A stretch of DNA of 13,171 bases from positions 1-13,171 of the forward strand of contig JAGBGB010000014.1 of assembly GCA_017936205.1 (NCBI GenBank). The letters run 5' to 3'. This document shows positions 176-9,246 of this stretch, piece by piece. Under the pieces are notes generated by a model. That model worked only from the letters and a program-made list of their open reading frames with translations, had not been told where the DNA came from and searched no databases. Each line of letters begins with the position of its first letter. The stretch's first letter is position 1. Both the position numbers and the translations under genes were made by a program. This stretch comes from Oscillospiraceae bacterium (GTDB taxonomy: Bacteria > Bacillota > Clostridia > Oscillospirales > Oscillospiraceae).

Positions 176-2131
176 TCAGGACAAATCACGCCGCTTTGCA
201 CCAAGAACCTGAGCAGTTTTAGGAGGAACCGAGCAAGAACCGCTGATGCTGTGTTCCTCCTTCCAAAGGAAGCTGCTCTCTCCATCTACAAGGATCTGCC
301 ACTTGCCTTCCGGTAGCTTTGTTTCTACCAAAGTCTGTCCACAATTAAAAATCAGAAGCAGATTATCCCACAAAGAATCTGCACCCTCATTATTCACACA
401 AGCTAATGCGCAGAAGGGTGTCTCGTTCTCCACCCATAGTAAGCGTTGCTTCCCCTGTTCCGAAAGATCCTTCGTCCATGGCAGCTGCTTTCGCAGAGCG
501 ATCAGACCCCGGTAGTAATCCACCAAGCCCTCATGCTTCCATGCACGAGTCCAGTCTATTTGATTGATCTCTGCGGAGGAACAATAGCTGTTCTTCACGC
601 CTCCTTTTGTTCTGCCAAATTCCTCACCGGCATGAAGAAACAGCCGTCCCTGACAACAAAAATGAATGGCAGCAGCCAATCGATTGGCTTGCAGGATCAC
701 AGCTTCACTCCCACAAAAATCCTTCTTAGGATCCATGGTGTAAACCAGCTTATCCCACAGCGTCCAATCGTCGTGGCAGGATAAATAGCAAATAGACTGT
801 CCCGCATTTCGGAAAACTCCGTCCTCCCCCGTCCATGCAGTTAGGCACTTCCCAAGAAGCTCTGCCGGAATAGGATTTCCGTTTACGAAGCCTACTGAGT
901 CTACATCCATCACGCTGCCTTTTACCAGATCCCGGGTATCATCACAGAAAGCTCCGATCCCTTCATGAATCTGCTTGAGGTTTCCCTTGTGGCAAAGGAT
1001 CGTCCCCGGTCTGTGAGCTGTAGGTCCCGCACTCCACGGTTCACCGTAAACCAGCTTCTCGCCCATACCATAACGGGCATCCAGCTCCCTGCGGATCTGC
1101 TCCATGAGCTCCTGATCCAACAACCCCATGAGATCAAAGCGGAAGCCATCAATGTGATATTCCTCTGCCCAATATAACACAGAGTCCAGAATATATCTGC
1201 TGCACATACTACGCTCCGAGGCAATATCATTCCCGCAGCCGGATCCGTTTGAAGGTGACCCGTCTTCATTCTGCCGATAAAAGTACCAAGGAGCCGTCTT
1301 GAACAAAGGAGACTCCAAATCATAGGTATGATTGTAAACCACATCCATGATCACTCGCAAGCCTGCTCGGTGAAGCTGCAGGATCATTTCCTTCAATTCC
1401 CGAATACGAACAGCACCGTTATAGGGATCGGAGGAATAACTTCCCTCAGGCACATTGTAATTCACAGGATCGTAGCCCCAGTTATATCCCTTCTCAGGCT
1501 CTGCCTCATTTACAGAACCATAATCATACATGGGGAGGATCTGAACATGAGTGATCCCAAGTCTCTTCAGATAATCAAGCCCCGTTGGATACAGACCTGA
1601 ATGATTCAAGGTAGTTCCTTCCTGCTTCAGTGCTGAAAAGCGTCCTCGGTCTCTATCAAAGAACCCCCCGTTGGGATCCCAGGAAAAATCCTTCACATGG
1701 AGCTCATAGATAATATCACAGTCAGGCTTTGCGGGAGAAGTATCTGCTCCCCATCCTTCCGGGTCTGTTTCAGACGGATCCGGGATCATACTCCGCTCAC
1801 CGTTTAAGCCACAGGCGCGGCAATAGGGATCCGCACTACAAAAGGATTCCCCATCTACAATGAGCATATAGTCATAATACACACCCCTCAAGAGGCGATC
1901 CGTTTTATATTCCCAAACGCCTTTTTTCCACAGTGACATCTGGAACTGCTCTGAAACCGTACAATGATCCCCTCTTAGGTATAAACGCAGGGTAACGGAC
2001 TGTGCGGTGGGCGCCCATAGACGGAACACAGTTCCTTCCTCGGACAGAAAGACCCCTAACGGAACAGCTGTATAAAACCGTTCATGGAATTCCTTACTAT
2101 CAAATAGGTGATCGTTTCTACTGAAACCCAT
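176..2131 (-). CDS. pulA: Type I pullulanase (glycogen/starch debranching enzyme)
   Basis: This is a GH13 debranching enzyme that hydrolyses alpha-1,6 branch points in pullulan, glycogen and branched maltodextrins. No signal peptide is visible, so it probably acts in the cytoplasm on stored or imported glucan. Residues about 25-110 look like the CBM48-type N-terminal beta domain (FRLWAPTA at 36-43). The pullulanase signature YNWGYDP is at 216-222. The GH13 regions follow: DVVYNH (263-268), GFRFD with nucleophile D333, VYGEPW with acid/base E364, and SCHDDWTLWD (451-460) with the transition-state-stabilising D454. Its 651 residues are ordinary for intracellular type I pullulanases. The ATG at 2131 is supported by AAGGAG 10 bases upstream; an ATG slightly further up is followed at once by TAA. 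Two terminator hairpins separate it from the upstream unit. No convincing promoter was found between those hairpins and the start. Confidence 0.95.
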   Translation of the reverse strand: MGFSRNDHLFDSKEFHERFYTAVPLGVFLSEEGTVFRLWAPTAQSVTLRLYLRGDHCTVSEQFQMSLWKKGVWEYKTDRLLRGVYYDYMLIVDGESFCSADPYCRACGLNGERSMIPDPSETDPEGWGADTSPAKPDCDIIYELHVKDFSWDPNGGFFDRDRGRFSALKQEGTTLNHSGLYPTGLDYLKRLGITHVQILPMYDYGSVNEAEPEKGYNWGYDPVNYNVPEGSYSSDPYNGAVRIRELKEMILQLHRAGLRVIMDVVYNHTYDLESPLFKTAPWYFYRQNEDGSPSNGSGCGNDIASERSMCSRYILDSVLYWAEEYHIDGFRFDLMGLLDQELMEQIRRELDARYGMGEKLVYGEPWSAGPTAHRPGTILCHKGNLKQIHEGIGAFCDDTRDLVKGSVMDVDSVGFVNGNPIPAELLGKCLTAWTGEDGVFRNAGQSICYLSCHDDWTLWDKLVYTMDPKKDFCGSEAVILQANRLAAAIHFCCQGRLFLHAGEEFGRTKGGVKNSYCSSAEINQIDWTRAWKHEGLVDYYRGLIALRKQLPWTKDLSEQGKQRLLWVENETPFCALACVNNEGADSLWDNLLLIFNCGQTLVETKLPEGKWQILVDGESSFLWKEEHSISGSCSVPPKTAQVLGAKRRDLS

Positions 2132-2221: not shown

Positions 2222-2259
2222 AATGCCGCTTCCGAAGCAGCTGATTCGGAAGCGGCATT
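2222..2259 (-). terminator. Strong hairpin terminating the radical SAM unit
   Basis: The perfect 15-bp stem AATGCCGCTTCCGAA (2222-2236) pairs with 2245-2259 around an 8-base loop. It begins about 33 bases beyond the radical SAM stop codon. The run of T on the minus strand is short, so termination may depend on the second hairpin at 2171-2205. Confidence 0.65.
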
Positions 2260-2291: not shown

Positions 2292-3374
2292 TCAATCTGT
2301 AGCCAGAGCTTGTAGGTTACGGATATATGCCTCAGTAAACTTACAAAGATAGTCGCCATGCTCTGTTACGCTTCCTGTCTCGCAATATCGAGAGGCAGCA
2401 CAGCTTGGGCACACCCTCTTATTGGGACAATTCACACACTCCGAGCAATTAGGAAGATGAACTACTTCCTCATTGATCTTGCTCCATGCCTCTCGGAAAC
2501 CAACCTCAAAGGGATCAGAACTGATTTGAGGTAGCATACCGCAAGGCAGCATCTTACCGTTCCAAGTCACCCAAAACTGGGAGCGACCTGCCAGACAGGA
2601 GATTCCCTCTTCTGTTTCGTGGTAGCAGTCCTCCATAACAAGCTGGCTCATAGCTTTTTTCCGCATATCCTCTTCCCCGTTGAAGAGAAGCTGGGATCGG
2701 AATGCTACGCAGCCGGCGTTCTCGGGAGGCAACCGATATGCGCTCTCAAGACCACCACGGCGACTGGGCGGGATCACGTAGCTGGTGCTGCGCAATGGAA
2801 GCCCTCGCTCCTTGGCAAAACGTACCAATTCATCAAGCTCATGATAATTGTCCGGCGTAAGGGTCCCATTCAAGCAAACCAAGATTCCACTGTTACGGAG
2901 CAAATCAATGGCATGGACTACACGATCAAAAGCACTTCCGTCCCCGCATAAATCCTCATAGGTCTGTCGAGAAGCACCATAGAGGGTAATATTAATCTTG
3001 GAGGGAGGTGCCTGAAGCAACTTGTCAACAACGGCTTCATTAATGAGGGTGCCGTTGCTATTTATATCCGTAATGATACCCATAGAATTTAATGCACTCA
3101 GAAGTTCGAACAGATCAGGGCGTAGGAATGGCTCTCCACCTGTCAGCAACAGGAATGTCATTCCCATTTCCCGTGCCTCACGAGCCAGTTCGATCCACTG
3201 GGAAACCGATCTTTCTTCTCCAATGGGACGCATTTGCTCCGGAGTCATACGAATATAGCACATTTTGCAGTTTAATGAGCAACGGGGTGTCAGTTCAAAC
3301 GCACCGTTGACCGGAATATTGCGATGGGCAGCCCTTCTGCATAAGGTCTGCCGAATCGGATGATCTTGTCTCAA
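2292..3374 (-). CDS. Radical SAM/SPASM enzyme, probable RiPP maturase
   Basis: This is a radical S-adenosylmethionine enzyme with a C-terminal SPASM domain. The [4Fe-4S]-SAM motif CxxxCxxC is C32-C36-C39, followed by Y40, and a GGEP-like motif follows in LLLTGGEPFLRP. The SPASM cysteines appear as C260 ... G273xxxxC278, then C310, C313, C316, C322, C325, C331 and C344, enough to hold auxiliary iron-sulfur clusters. SPASM proteins commonly modify ribosomal peptides by forming thioether or C-C bonds. The gene lies 84 bases after a small Cys-containing peptide gene on the same strand, so that peptide is the likely substrate (inference). The start is TTG, supported by AAGGGGAG with 6 intervening bases. 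The SAM motif begins only 32 residues in, so no N-terminal peptide-recognition (RRE) domain fits. Alternatives are an enzyme modifying another protein, or a general SPASM oxidoreductase. Confidence 0.88.
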   Translation of the reverse strand: MRQDHPIRQTLCRRAAHRNIPVNGAFELTPRCSLNCKMCYIRMTPEQMRPIGEERSVSQWIELAREAREMGMTFLLLTGGEPFLRPDLFELLSALNSMGIITDINSNGTLINEAVVDKLLQAPPSKINITLYGASRQTYEDLCGDGSAFDRVVHAIDLLRNSGILVCLNGTLTPDNYHELDELVRFAKERGLPLRSTSYVIPPSRRGGLESAYRLPPENAGCVAFRSQLLFNGEEDMRKKAMSQLVMEDCYHETEEGISCLAGRSQFWVTWNGKMLPCGMLPQISSDPFEVGFREAWSKINEEVVHLPNCSECVNCPNKRVCPSCAASRYCETGSVTEHGDYLCKFTEAYIRNLQALATD

Positions 3375-3414
3375 ATAGCTCTCCCCTTCTGAACAATACT
3401 ATATAGAGGAAAAA

Positions 3415-3440
3415 CTGCTGCAGAGGCATTTCTGCAGCAG
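3415..3440 (-). terminator. Terminator/attenuator hairpin between peptide and radical SAM gene
   Basis: CTGCTGCAGA (3415-3424) pairs perfectly with TCTGCAGCAG (3431-3440) around a 6-base loop. On the minus strand the stem is followed directly by TTTTTCC. It lies 18 bases after the peptide stop codon and 40 bases before the TTG of the radical SAM gene. No separate promoter is evident after it, so it probably ends most transcripts and lets some read through. Confidence 0.75.
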
Positions 3441-3458
3441 CGTGAATTATGGTCATAA

Positions 3459-3737
3459 TTAGGAATTCAGGAAAATATCCGAGATACCCCAAGTGGAATG
3501 AGGTCCATGATAGCAAACGGACTCTCCGCCTCCGGGACCGTTGCCAACTAAGTCAGTCTGACAATTATAATAGCCGAAGAACTCGCCACCGGCAGTCCAC
3601 CACTGCTCGTCAGCAGCTAAGCTGGTGCTGCACTGAGTAGTAGTGTTGCCAATGGGAACTTGACACTTATCCGCAATCGCAGCATCCAGCTGATAGGACT
3701 CGAAAGCCAACTGAGGCCGAGAGTAAGATTTTTTCAT
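3459..3737 (-). CDS. Cys-containing small peptide, probable RiPP precursor
   Basis: This is a 92-residue protein of unrecognised family. The N-terminal 24 residues (MKKSYSRPQLAFESY... to ADK) resemble a leader: charged and amphipathic, with no cysteine. The rest, starting at C25, is rich in Gly, Thr, Ser and aromatic residues, and has cysteines at 25, 36, 59 and 75, a WW pair at 46-47, and GGG at 69-71. There is no signal peptide or membrane segment. The ATG at 3737 is preferred over an in-frame GTG three codons earlier because GAGAGGG sits 8-9 bases before it. The gene lies directly upstream of a radical SAM/SPASM enzyme with a terminator-like hairpin between them, an arrangement typical of sactipeptide or ranthipeptide-like systems. 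That role is inferred from context; it could instead be an unmodified small protein. Confidence 0.72.
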   Translation of the reverse strand: MKKSYSRPQLAFESYQLDAAIADKCQVPIGNTTTQCSTSLAADEQWWTAGGEFFGYYNCQTDLVGNGPGGGESVCYHGPHSTWGISDIFLNS

Positions 3738-3868
3738 GATAAGCACCCTCTCATCTAAGGTAAAGTTCTACAATAACTATAAAAATCTATTCAATATATC
3801 ATAACAAAAACAGTGTTAAATTCCCACAAAACCTACATCATATAGGCACACGTATAACACTACTTGGA

Positions 3869-4077: not shown

Positions 4078-4114
4078 TGTATGCTCAAACCCCTATTATG
4101 AAAGGATGTTGATC

Positions 4115-5098
4115 ATGCTTAAAATTGGAATCGCCGGATACGGAAATTTAGCCAGAGGTGTAGAGTGCGCACTTCGTTCTTGTGCAGATATGCAGCTTTG
4201 TGCTGTGTTCACTCGCAGAGATCCCTCCTGCGTAAAAATCCTGACCGAAGCGGTACCGGTGCTTCCCTTAGACAGTATTACGGAGTGGAAGGACCATCTG
4301 GATGTTTTATTGCTCTGTGGTGGCAGCGCATCTGACCTCCCCGCCATGACCCCCCTCCTTGCACAGCATTTCAATGTTGTGGACAGCTTTGATACCCATG
4401 CACGGATCCCGGAGCATTTTTCAGCCGTTCAGAGAGCCGCAGAGGGAAGTGGACATATTGCAGTAATTTCAGCCGGTTGGGATCCCGGTCTTTTCTCCCT
4501 GAATCGCCTATATGCCTCTGCGATCCTGCCTAACAGCAGTACCTATACCTTCTGGGGACGGGGTGTCAGTCAGGGCCACTCCGATGCGGTTCGCCGCATC
4601 CCCGGTGTTTTGGATTGTCGACAGTACACCATCCCTGTTCCCCAGGCTATAGACTCCGTGCGAAGCGGTCACGCTCCGCAGCTGACCACCCGACAGAAGC
4701 ATACCAGGCATTGCTTCGTCGTAGCTGCTCCGGATGCAGATCTCCACAGAATCGAAGAGCAAATCAAAACCATGCCCAACTATTTTGCTGACTACGATAC
4801 AACAGTCACCTTTATAACACAGCAAGAGCTTCAGAGGGACCATGCCGGCCTTCCCCATGGTGGCCATGTGATCAATACCGGTGCTACAGGCTGGAACGGT
4901 GAGCATAAGCAACGGATCGAATATACGCTGGAATTAGATTCCAATCCGGAGTTTACTGCATCCGTCCTTGTAAGCTGTGCCCGTGCAGCCATGCGCATGG
5001 CAGGAAGAGGCTGCAAAGGCTGCTACACCATGCTGGATATTGCTCCTGCAGATCTCAGCCCCCTGAGCCGCGAAGAGCTGATGGCATCCCTCTTATAA
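4115..5098 (+). CDS. ddh: meso-Diaminopimelate D-dehydrogenase
   Basis: This NADPH-dependent cytoplasmic enzyme reductively aminates L-2-amino-6-oxopimelate (tetrahydrodipicolinate) to meso-diaminopimelate in one step, supplying lysine and peptidoglycan synthesis. The N-terminal Rossmann motif is GIAGYGNLARG (residues 5-15). The family-specific stretch SAGWDPGLFSLNR (119-131) and the substrate-site motif FWGRGVSQGHSDA (146-158) are intact. At 327 residues it matches the roughly 320-residue Corynebacterium-type enzyme. The ATG at 4115 is chosen over an in-frame ATG at 4106 because AAAGGA (4101-4106) sits 8 bases before 4115 and overlaps the earlier codon. It is the first gene of a co-directional group of four with short gaps. 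The sequence is intact and unremarkable for the family. Confidence 0.95.
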   Translation: MLKIGIAGYGNLARGVECALRSCADMQLCAVFTRRDPSCVKILTEAVPVLPLDSITEWKDHLDVLLLCGGSASDLPAMTPLLAQHFNVVDSFDTHARIPEHFSAVQRAAEGSGHIAVISAGWDPGLFSLNRLYASAILPNSSTYTFWGRGVSQGHSDAVRRIPGVLDCRQYTIPVPQAIDSVRSGHAPQLTTRQKHTRHCFVVAAPDADLHRIEEQIKTMPNYFADYDTTVTFITQQELQRDHAGLPHGGHVINTGATGWNGEHKQRIEYTLELDSNPEFTASVLVSCARAAMRMAGRGCKGCYTMLDIAPADLSPLSREELMASLL

Positions 5099-7968: not shown

Positions 7969-8685
7969 TTATGTTTTCGGAGCTTCTGACAGAAAAACAG
8001 GGGGATTTTTGTACCCACACACCTTCTCATTAAGCATCTGCGTGATGAATGCCATAAAAGGTGCAGGCATACTGCGGCAATGTAAGGGGCAAAGCTGTAC
8101 GCAACGCAGACAGTTGATGCACAGCTCACTGTTACAGGAGCTACAGTTATCCACAGGAATGGCTCCCACAGGACAGTTTTCTGCACACAGAACACAGTTT
8201 ACACAATTCTCATCCGCCGATGGATGGAAGGGTGTAGGCTTAGGCTCTACATAGGGCTCATTACCGGGAACCTGAACACCCTCAGTCTCACTCAGATTTT
8301 CCAGAATCTTCTGTGCAAACTTATGAGCGATCCTGACATCCTCCGCATCAGGTCGTCCGGCTGCAATAGAGCGGACAATGGAATGCTCTGCAATAAAGGC
8401 TGCAGCAGCAACGACTTGAAATCCATTTCCCTCTAAGGTATTCTTTGTTTCCAACAAGCCATCGTCAAATTCCCGATTGCCGTATACTACAACTGCAACC
8501 GCCTTCTGCCCCTCCCCCTTGAGGGCAGATAATCTCTCCAAAGCAACCTTTGGGATCCGACCTGCATATATCGGCAGAACCGACATCAAGATATCCGCTT
8601 CACCCAAACCGATTTCCGAGCATTCCTTGGTCAAGTCCACATCTGCTGTGGGCATATTGAAGCCTGCGGCAATGGCATCTGCCAC
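7969..8685 (-). CDS. Flavodoxin/2[4Fe-4S] ferredoxin fusion, N-terminus apparently frameshifted
   Basis: This is a cytoplasmic electron carrier with a flavodoxin-like N-terminal half and a bacterial-type ferredoxin C-terminal half. In the readable 238-residue part, LPIYAGRIPKVALERL (37-52) is the typical flavodoxin stretch of this family. Cluster motifs CxxCxxCxxxCP are at C161/164/167/171 and C189/192/195/199. The frame opens at GTG 8685, but the codons upstream in the same frame encode PTGGTKR, the FMN-loop motif, so the GTG is not a natural start. The natural ATG appears to be at 8729 with AGGAAG before it. From there MNTQKLI is encoded in another frame, as if about 7 bases were missing before PTGGTKR. 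Either the gene is a recent pseudogene or the assembly has an error. As it stands the FMN site is disrupted. Confidence 0.8.
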   Translation of the reverse strand: MADAIAAGFNMPTADVDLTKECSEIGLGEADILMSVLPIYAGRIPKVALERLSALKGEGQKAVAVVVYGNREFDDGLLETKNTLEGNGFQVVAAAAFIAEHSIVRSIAAGRPDAEDVRIAHKFAQKILENLSETEGVQVPGNEPYVEPKPTPFHPSADENCVNCVLCAENCPVGAIPVDNCSSCNSELCINCLRCVQLCPLHCRSMPAPFMAFITQMLNEKVCGYKNPPVFLSEAPKT

Positions 8686-8974: not shown

Positions 8975-9184
8975 TAAATTCCGATTTATCGTACCATTCG
9001 TAGGGGCGCGCCTTGCGCGTCCGACAACCACCAAGACTTGGGGGGTGTGAAAAATGTTGCGATTTTTGAAAAAAATACATCATTTTCGGTGGTTTTTGTG
9101 TTCATGGCGTTCCGCCATGAACCGGACGCGCAATGCGCGCCCCTACGCAGCGTTAAATCAAACTGTTCGACAAATCGGAATTTA
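8975..9184. repeat. MITE-like nested inverted-repeat element
   Basis: A 210-bp element is bounded by TAAATTCCGATTT (8975-8987) and its exact complement (9172-9184); the match extends to 17 bases with one mismatch. Inside lie 25-base arms starting CGTAGGGGCGCGC (8999-9023 and 9123-9147, one mismatch), then AACCACC/GGTGGTT (9026-9032/9088-9094), AAAATG/CATTTT (9051-9056/9081-9086), and a perfect 10-bp hairpin GTTCATGGCG/CGCCATGAAC (9100-9109/9113-9122). The whole could fold into long hairpins on either strand. There is no transposase and no coding capacity. A related repeat is at the right end of the window. It resembles a miniature inverted-repeat element; no clear target duplication beyond TA is seen. 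Confidence 0.7.
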
Positions 9185-9199
9185 ACATGGAATTATCAT

Positions 9200-9246
9200 A
9201 GAGGCTATCTCACATTTTTAGCGAGATAGCCTCTTGTTGTTTTTTA
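9200..9246 (+). terminator. Hairpin with plus-strand T run after ahpF
   Basis: AGAGGCTATCTC (9200-9211) pairs perfectly with GAGATAGCCTCT (9223-9234). On the plus strand TGTTGTTTTTTA follows. It lies about 41 bases beyond the minus-strand AhpF-like stop codon, so it may serve that transcript too, but the T run favours plus-strand transcription. Confidence 0.6.

Follow-up and report, generated by a model that had tools for sequence, protein, structure and literature searches.

Two adjacent genes in an Oscillospiraceae genome probably encode a RiPP precursor and the radical SAM maturase that modifies it. With moderate confidence we propose that the cysteines of this peptide are probably thioether-modified, that its leader is bound by an RRE supplied in trans, and that the pair stands alone as a reduced branch of a wider system of Oscillospiraceae. 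This wider system appears to be a coherent RiPP-type system of gut Oscillospiraceae in which radical SAM chemistry is combined with an RRE of the lasso/LPP type and a kinase that is HprK-like. It is apparently undescribed: in full-text searches of a mostly non-subscription literature, none of the titles and abstract openings listed described this gene combination. The stretch of DNA that was analysed, hereafter the window, is 13,171 nucleotides long (GCA_017936205.1, contig JAGBGB010000014.1). A second copy of the pair is found in an Oscillospiraceae MAG from cattle rectum (locus L027).

The precursor peptide

The peptide gene, P0001, occupies positions 3459..3737 of the reverse strand and encodes 92 residues. 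A preliminary description of the window, made from the sequence alone, had reported cysteines at residues 25, 36, 59 and 75 and none in residues 1-24, and this is borne out. Among about 5.8 billion proteins searched, 15 relatives were found at E <= 1, the worst with an E-value of 9.2e-23, all with full query coverage and 59 to 95% identity. These homologues align with 36 invariant columns, so P0001 is a genuine gene and not a chance ORF. The invariant columns include the four cysteines, each present in 16/16 rows (reverse-strand codons 3663..3665 for Cys25, 3630..3632 for Cys36, 3561..3563 for Cys59 in NCQTDL and 3513..3515 for Cys75 in VCYHGP). They also include the C-terminal serine, Ser92 (3462..3464, reverse strand), a candidate phosphorylation site by analogy; its column is serine in 16/16 rows, and one relative, P0003, extends two residues beyond it. 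Aromatic residues are conserved beside the cysteines in this close family, in EFF, YxNCQ and VCYHGP.

The first 24 residues, MKKSYSRPQLAFESYQLDAAIADK (3666..3737, reverse strand), form a putative leader, and the remaining core of about 68 residues has widely spaced cysteines. A YxxP motif at residues 5-8 (3714..3725, reverse strand) is conserved in the homologues and is a candidate RRE-binding site. Neither Pfam nor NCBIfam gave a match to P0001 at E <= 1, and no Sec-like signal was seen by eye. The unmodified peptide is predicted to be unfolded (pLDDT 34.9, no confident model), a low score that the 16-row alignment may explain. The single match of the peptide profile to a solved structure (E 0.091) was disregarded.

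A purine-rich, ribosome-binding-like stretch can be read just 5′ of both start codons, GAGAGGG at 3746..3752 for P0001 and AGAAGGGGAG at 3381..3390 for the enzyme gene, both on the reverse strand. The 84-base spacer between the two genes contains a terminator- or attenuator-like hairpin with an 11-pair stem followed by a U-run (3414..3441, reverse strand; spacer fold z -2.77). The L027 spacer differs in sequence; we read in it a GC hairpin and then a T-rich run, and its fold has a z of -3.10, with a lowest-energy fold that pairs otherwise than the hairpin read by eye. Terminator-like sites in the region number 3, not clearly above the shuffle mean of 2.1. A hairpin in this position would favour an excess of precursor. 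An inverted repeat 3′ of the enzyme gene (2222..2259, a self match to the opposite strand at 95%) may mark the end of the operon. A scan of the window against Rfam gave no match at gathering scores.

The genes that flank the pair encode a type I pullulanase (176-2131, reverse strand) and a diaminopimelate dehydrogenase (4106-5098, forward strand), both above their NCBIfam cut-offs. No peptidase, transporter or immunity gene adjoins the pair, as had been noted from the sequence, and no lasso cyclase or B2 peptidase was found among the ten window proteins scanned.

The radical SAM enzyme

The second gene, P0002, follows the peptide on the same strand, as first described. It begins with TTG, occupies positions 2292..3374 of the reverse strand and encodes 360 residues. 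Pfam places a radical SAM domain (PF04055) at residues 27-187 with 96.9 bits. When 8000 candidates were scored, 5153 matched P0002 at E <= 0.001, and an alignment of 64 rows was made from P0002 and 63 of its best 120 relatives. The CxxxCxxC cluster motif (Cys 32, 36 and 39; 3258..3281, reverse strand) is invariant in 64/64 rows. A further cysteine region at 2343..2627 (reverse strand; Cys 250, 260, 278, 313, 316, 322, 325 and 344), assigned as SPASM by its motif spacing, has seven cysteines that are invariant in the 64 rows, with Cys250 kept in 90% or more. NCBIfam returned 78 families at E <= 1; the 25 of these that were listed all score far below their curated cut-offs, the best of them being heme b synthase, with 121.5 bits where the cut-off is 500.

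Comparison with solved structures points in two directions. A radical SAM profile places the sactisynthase SkfB nearest (E 1.3e-19), followed by cytosylglucuronate decarboxylase (5e-15), PqqE (2.5e-13), 5v1q (4.8e-13; labelled 'Radical SAM' only, which we take to be CteB) and anSME (8e-11). The single P0002 sequence finds PqqE first (3.8e-14), with SkfB fourth among the matches listed (1.2e-10), so P0002 comes nearest to a thioether maker in the profile comparison alone, and this nearness is not firm. PqqE is a maker of carbon-carbon bonds. An RRE fused at the N terminus of the maturase is usual in AlbA, SkfB and CteB. P0002 has no room for one, since its radical SAM domain starts at residue 27 of 360, and no RRE was found beside or fused to it at the window locus.

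Thioethers are our first guess for the chemistry because no other core residues are as well conserved as the cysteines and because the profile places SkfB nearest among the structures. The alternative that fares best, and which partly overlaps with this reading as the other rivals below also do, is that the enzyme acts on the peptide otherwise, by carbon-carbon or ether cross-links, epimerisation, or conversion of cysteine or serine, with the cysteines forming disulfides after export. We regard this as possible and rather doubtful. Each of these reactions on peptides or proteins is known from radical SAM enzymes, according to the available text of a review (PMC8326336); P0002 by itself lies nearest to PqqE, anSME is among the profile matches, aromatic residues are conserved beside the cysteines of the close family, and an even number of cysteines would suit disulfides. 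Against this stand the position of SkfB as the nearest structure by profile and the cysteines themselves, which outrank all other core residues in conservation across the wider set of peptides.

The wider peptide family

Peptide-profile searches covered 300, 394 and 400 genomes, in draws that overlap. They revealed divergent peptides with a shared plan: a leader of the form MKKxYxKP, a cysteine near residue 25, further cysteines and a C-terminal serine, the last in 28 of the 29 rows of the divergent-peptide alignment. From the loci that were collected, 62 of 63 peptide ORFs passed the E-value filter, a few of them with weak scores (E 1e-5 to 1e-3). YxxP lies within the first 14 residues in 60/62 of these wider peptides, and 56/62 end in serine. 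The aligned cysteine columns are largely kept (59/60, 59/60, 58/59 and 50/58). The number of cysteines per peptide varies, with four in 38, three in 12, five or six in 10 and none in one; the L032 peptide, which was wrongly trimmed to 17 residues, is one of the 24/62 not scored as having four. The expectation that homologues would conserve the four cysteines therefore holds for all 16 close rows and, column by column, for most of the wider set, while exactly four cysteines are found in only 38/62.

The preliminary description had also proposed to check whether homologues of the peptide always neighbour this enzyme family, and here the outcome depends on scale. Of 400 genomes from the taxonomic family, 34 have the peptide (E <= 0.01), 33 the enzyme (E <= 1e-60) and 30 both, a strong co-occurrence; two of the four peptide-only genomes have weak peptide matches (E 0.006 and 7e-4). 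Strict adjacency is not supported. A same-strand radical SAM gene lies within 6 kb downstream of 29/56 peptide loci and is absent at 27/56, and 29/47 enzyme genes have a peptide placed likewise (same strand, within 6 kb). In several genomes the peptide loci and the enzyme are on separate contigs. Homologues that mostly lack a radical SAM gene had been named as evidence against a modification system; this is nearly the case when loci are counted, and it is not the case when genomes are counted. A cysteine-bearing precursor beside a SPASM enzyme thus stands, and a strict neighbourhood does not.

Locus organization and associated genes

What the first reading had overlooked is a relation to a larger system with a kinase, an RRE and giant secreted proteins. 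Neighbours were annotated in 78 sources, the window and 77 loci; the loci were picked for their peptide or radical SAM matches and are not a random sample, and some of the genomes scanned with profiles A2 and A5 had also supplied loci for building them. The commonest gene order is a giant secreted protein carrying a region that we call GDOM, the peptide, an HprK-like kinase, the radical SAM enzyme and a PqqD-like RRE. In these chosen loci 38/63 peptide ORFs sit behind a GDOM ORF that ends between 60 bases inside and 400 bases before the peptide. Downstream of the 63 peptide ORFs a kinase-like gene is found within 3 kb in 37, a radical SAM gene within 5 kb in 36 and a PqqD gene within 6 kb in 23. 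Kinase-like genes also lie at most 500 bases upstream of 42/53 radical SAM genes; the 11 that lack one include those of the window and L027. Some loci contain additional genes, namely NTP_transf_5 (PF14907, 6 matches) and S24/S26-like genes (11 matches). In a 90-row tree the window enzyme, 17 close proteins and the L027 enzyme form one clade (100/99) within the wider family. At one locus (L167:8812-11072) two tandem radical SAM genes of the family follow one peptide and one kinase-like gene.

Twelve kinase-like proteins were compared, and H, GK and NGD are invariant across them. Their NCBIfam matches are to ScmC (10), HprK-related B (9) and HprK-related A (8), below the cut-offs where these are shown. 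None of them matched the Pfam HPr kinase family, and their profile reaches a solved HPr kinase at E 0.089 only. Of the PqqD-like proteins, 12/12 match two lasso chaperone models, below the cut-off in the member shown, and the best structural match of the RRE profile is the lasso RRE TbiB1 (E 1.3e-11), followed by 9x90 and 9x8z.

Giant secreted proteins

GDOM is a region of about 185 residues common to the giant proteins. No Pfam or NCBIfam family had its best match in this region in the eight proteins scanned. Elsewhere these proteins carry GH20, GH88, VWA, Ig-like or fibro-slime domains. Judged by eye, a Sec-like signal stands at the start of many of these proteins. GDOM was found in 33 of the 400 genomes (E <= 1e-10), 32 of which hold the peptide (Fisher p 9e-44) and 31 the enzyme (2e-41); these p values are inflated by related genomes, though the matches come from 14 genera, and some of the genomes scanned had contributed to the profile. 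Peptide, radical SAM enzyme and GDOM occur together in 30/400 genomes, with pairwise Fisher p values from 2e-37 to 9e-44 for genomes that are not independent. In a hand-picked set of 25 genomes, GDOM was found in 13/13 with the peptide and in 0/12 others.

The window genome is rich in these proteins, with 18 GDOM matches on 17 contigs; the L027 genome has 15 and the other 11 positive genomes of the hand-picked set 1 to 6. Peptides are found on 4/17 of the GDOM contigs of the window genome (C247, C105, C211 and C213). The remaining 13/17 have no detected peptide, and some of them are cut by contig ends. Nine of these 13, whole or in part, hold ten GDOM ORFs and gave no peptide match at E <= 0.01; two of the ten ORFs have a 3′ end that runs off the contig and two stop within 170 bases of a contig end. 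Several of the GDOM proteins of loci L188-L196 share an extra C-terminal stretch that ends like SDSAKAFF.

The near-perfect co-occurrence of peptide and GDOM (32 shared genomes, 33 against 34 of 400) suggests a function, in which RiPP-like peptides would be working parts of cell-surface proteins, not antibiotics. It also gives room to another rival reading: that the peptide is a disulfide-linked or metal-binding partner of the giant secreted proteins, and that the enzyme modifies something else, e.g. GDOM. The genome counts, the 38/63 peptide ORFs behind a GDOM ORF and the peptides without an adjoining enzyme are all in keeping with a partner role. Yet at the window locus and at L027 the peptide gene is followed by the enzyme gene, and a GDOM gene adjoins neither pair. 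The peptide itself carries a YxxP that resembles a leader motif; by eye it lacks a Sec-like signal, and its structure prediction gave no confident fold. We consider this reading improbable.

At one locus of the window genome (L028:1932-3569) a single reading frame joins a peptide to the C-terminal part of a GDOM protein. We considered this fusion as functional proof of a link and rejected it. In genome G751 the same GDOM protein (L187) is about 137 residues longer, and the peptide is encoded apart from it behind a ribosome-binding-like site of its own; because G751 keeps both genes apart, the fusion is probably a local deletion or an assembly join.

The two-gene form

In the window and in L027 the locus consists of the peptide and the enzyme only, with kinase and RRE genes absent beside both. 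A diaminopimelate dehydrogenase-type gene is divergent on the peptide side in each (by model in the window, by eye in L027). The two-gene form rests on these two independent loci, from two genomes of one genus, in which 4/17 genomes matched the close peptide profile at E <= 1e-8. A locus of G751, the only strong new match among these, was put forward as a third independent case and rejected, as it is the reverse complement of L027 from the same genome.

The partner genes are found elsewhere in the window genome. One locus has an HprK-like, a radical SAM and a PqqD gene without a peptide (L056), another an HprK-like gene and a peptide on a contig with a GDOM protein (L057), and another HprK-like, PqqD and S26-like genes (L058); L056 and L058 are on contigs other than that of the window. 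This genome is 72.5% complete, so that absence of a gene from the rest of it cannot be claimed. Between the window and L027 we obtained pN 0.275 and pS 0.90 for the peptide and pN 0.255 and pS 0.80 for the enzyme; since synonymous sites are saturated, constraint is evident and an exact ratio is not given. This purifying constraint, the 15 full-cover peptide homologues and the kinase and RRE genes elsewhere in the genome make it very improbable that the pair is a decayed relic, inactive after the loss of the adjoining kinase and RRE genes that both the window and L027 lack.

Comparison with known systems

The nearest described system is that of the linear polyphosphorylated peptides (LPP; Popov et al. 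2026, PMC13381572). In the available text of that paper, an RRE binds YxxP leaders, a motif that acts in lasso and LPP leaders alike, and an HprK-like kinase phosphorylates serine multiply; the phosphorylated serine is the third residue of the core, not the last. The wider family shares with LPP the YxxP leader, a discrete PqqD-like RRE, an HprK-like gene and, in some loci, NTP_transf_5 and S24/S26-like genes. It differs in its cysteine-bearing cores, its radical SAM enzyme and its GDOM protein; no radical SAM enzyme is reported for LPP, and the main text of the paper (PMC13381572) mentions 'Radical SAM' 0 times. The window pair is further removed. The LPP precursor consensus is YxxPxVLxHQxIxFETxxS (PMC13381572), of which P0001 has YxxP and FES and lacks the HQ segment, and the LPP gene set (HprK-like kinase, discrete RRE, SpI, NTP transferase, exporter) is not beside the pair, nor does the window as a whole carry any of the LPP enzymes; genes of the kinase, RRE and S26-like kinds occur on other contigs. 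The wider family could, by analogy, be described as LPP-like logic plus a radical SAM step on a cysteine-bearing core.

Certain lasso peptides also resemble the wider family. Paeninodin is phosphorylated on its C-terminal serine and pseudomycoidin is phosphorylated and hexosylated; the kinases PadeK and PsmK act on the C-terminal serine, and PsmN is a nucleotidyltransferase (as given in the available text of PMC9266682). A kinase directed at a C-terminal serine, a nucleotidyltransferase and an RRE that is lasso-type by profile are thus points of likeness, and the radical SAM enzyme and cysteine-bearing core are points of difference. In the available text of another paper (PMC4289311) HPr kinase is mentioned solely with lasso clusters.

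Sactipeptides and ranthipeptides share with the pair a SPASM radical SAM enzyme beside a cysteine-bearing precursor (available text of PMC8326336). They differ from it in that the core here is about 68 residues long with wide cysteine spacing, the enzyme has no fused RRE, and relatives show a link with a kinase-like gene and with giant secreted proteins. SCIFF peptides have six cysteines in forty-five residues, against four in 92 for P0001. Features of a radical SAM-modified RiPP (RaS-RiPP) are present: in the window and L027 a radical SAM gene adjoins the precursor gene, which is not so at the 27 wider loci mentioned above, and CxxxCxxC and SPASM cysteines mark the enzyme family in all 64 rows, except for Cys250 (90% or more). 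The preliminary description had found no subclass that fits, and among the subclasses we compared this remains so; what can be said is that a leader-bearing cysteine precursor stands beside a SPASM radical SAM enzyme.

The SynChlorMet cassette combines ScmE and ScmF radical SAM proteins with ScmD (PqqD) and ScmC (HprK-like). Weak matches to ScmC, ScmE, ScmF and ScmD (NCBIfam ScmC-F) are found here, below the cut-offs where those are shown. A search of the literature by name for SynChlorMet with radical SAM found nothing.

Proposed mechanism

The sequences show the two genes, their conservation and their association across genomes; on this footing we propose the following course of events. The ribosome would make the 92-residue peptide, with its first 24 or so residues as a leader, and an attenuator between the genes would hold the level of precursor above that of the enzyme. 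The YxxP of the leader would be read by a PqqD-like RRE of the lasso/LPP type, whose gene lies at another place in the genome. The SPASM enzyme would then modify the core, most likely by linking at least one conserved cysteine to residue carbons as thioethers, and the conserved C-terminal serine would probably be phosphorylated in trans by an HprK-like kinase. The modified peptide probably acts with the GDOM giant secreted proteins at the cell surface.

A bolder version of this idea, which we offer as a tentative and on balance unlikely proposal, is that the wider system is a new form of surface display. A cross-linked, serine-phosphorylated peptide would dock or anchor GDOM glycosidases and adhesins, and the window pair would be a stand-alone supplier of peptide in a genome where GDOM has multiplied.

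Other features of the window

Other parts of the window were annotated in passing. An EFR1 family ferredoxin-like gene (7969-8685) scores below its curated cut-off. Between 9275 and 12967 are genes for an AhpC peroxiredoxin and an AhpF-like reductase, which share one base, and a divergent gene for an EmrB/DHA2-like MFS transporter, below cut-off. Positions 8990-9185 contain a dispersed repeat of about 195 bases. With 8990-9240 as the query, 225 first-look candidates were found in the window genome, 40 of which were scored; full-length copies are about 88-94% identical over about 180-200 bases. Within the repeat there are short inverted matches (query 10-34 with 134-158), and it looks like a MITE-like element.
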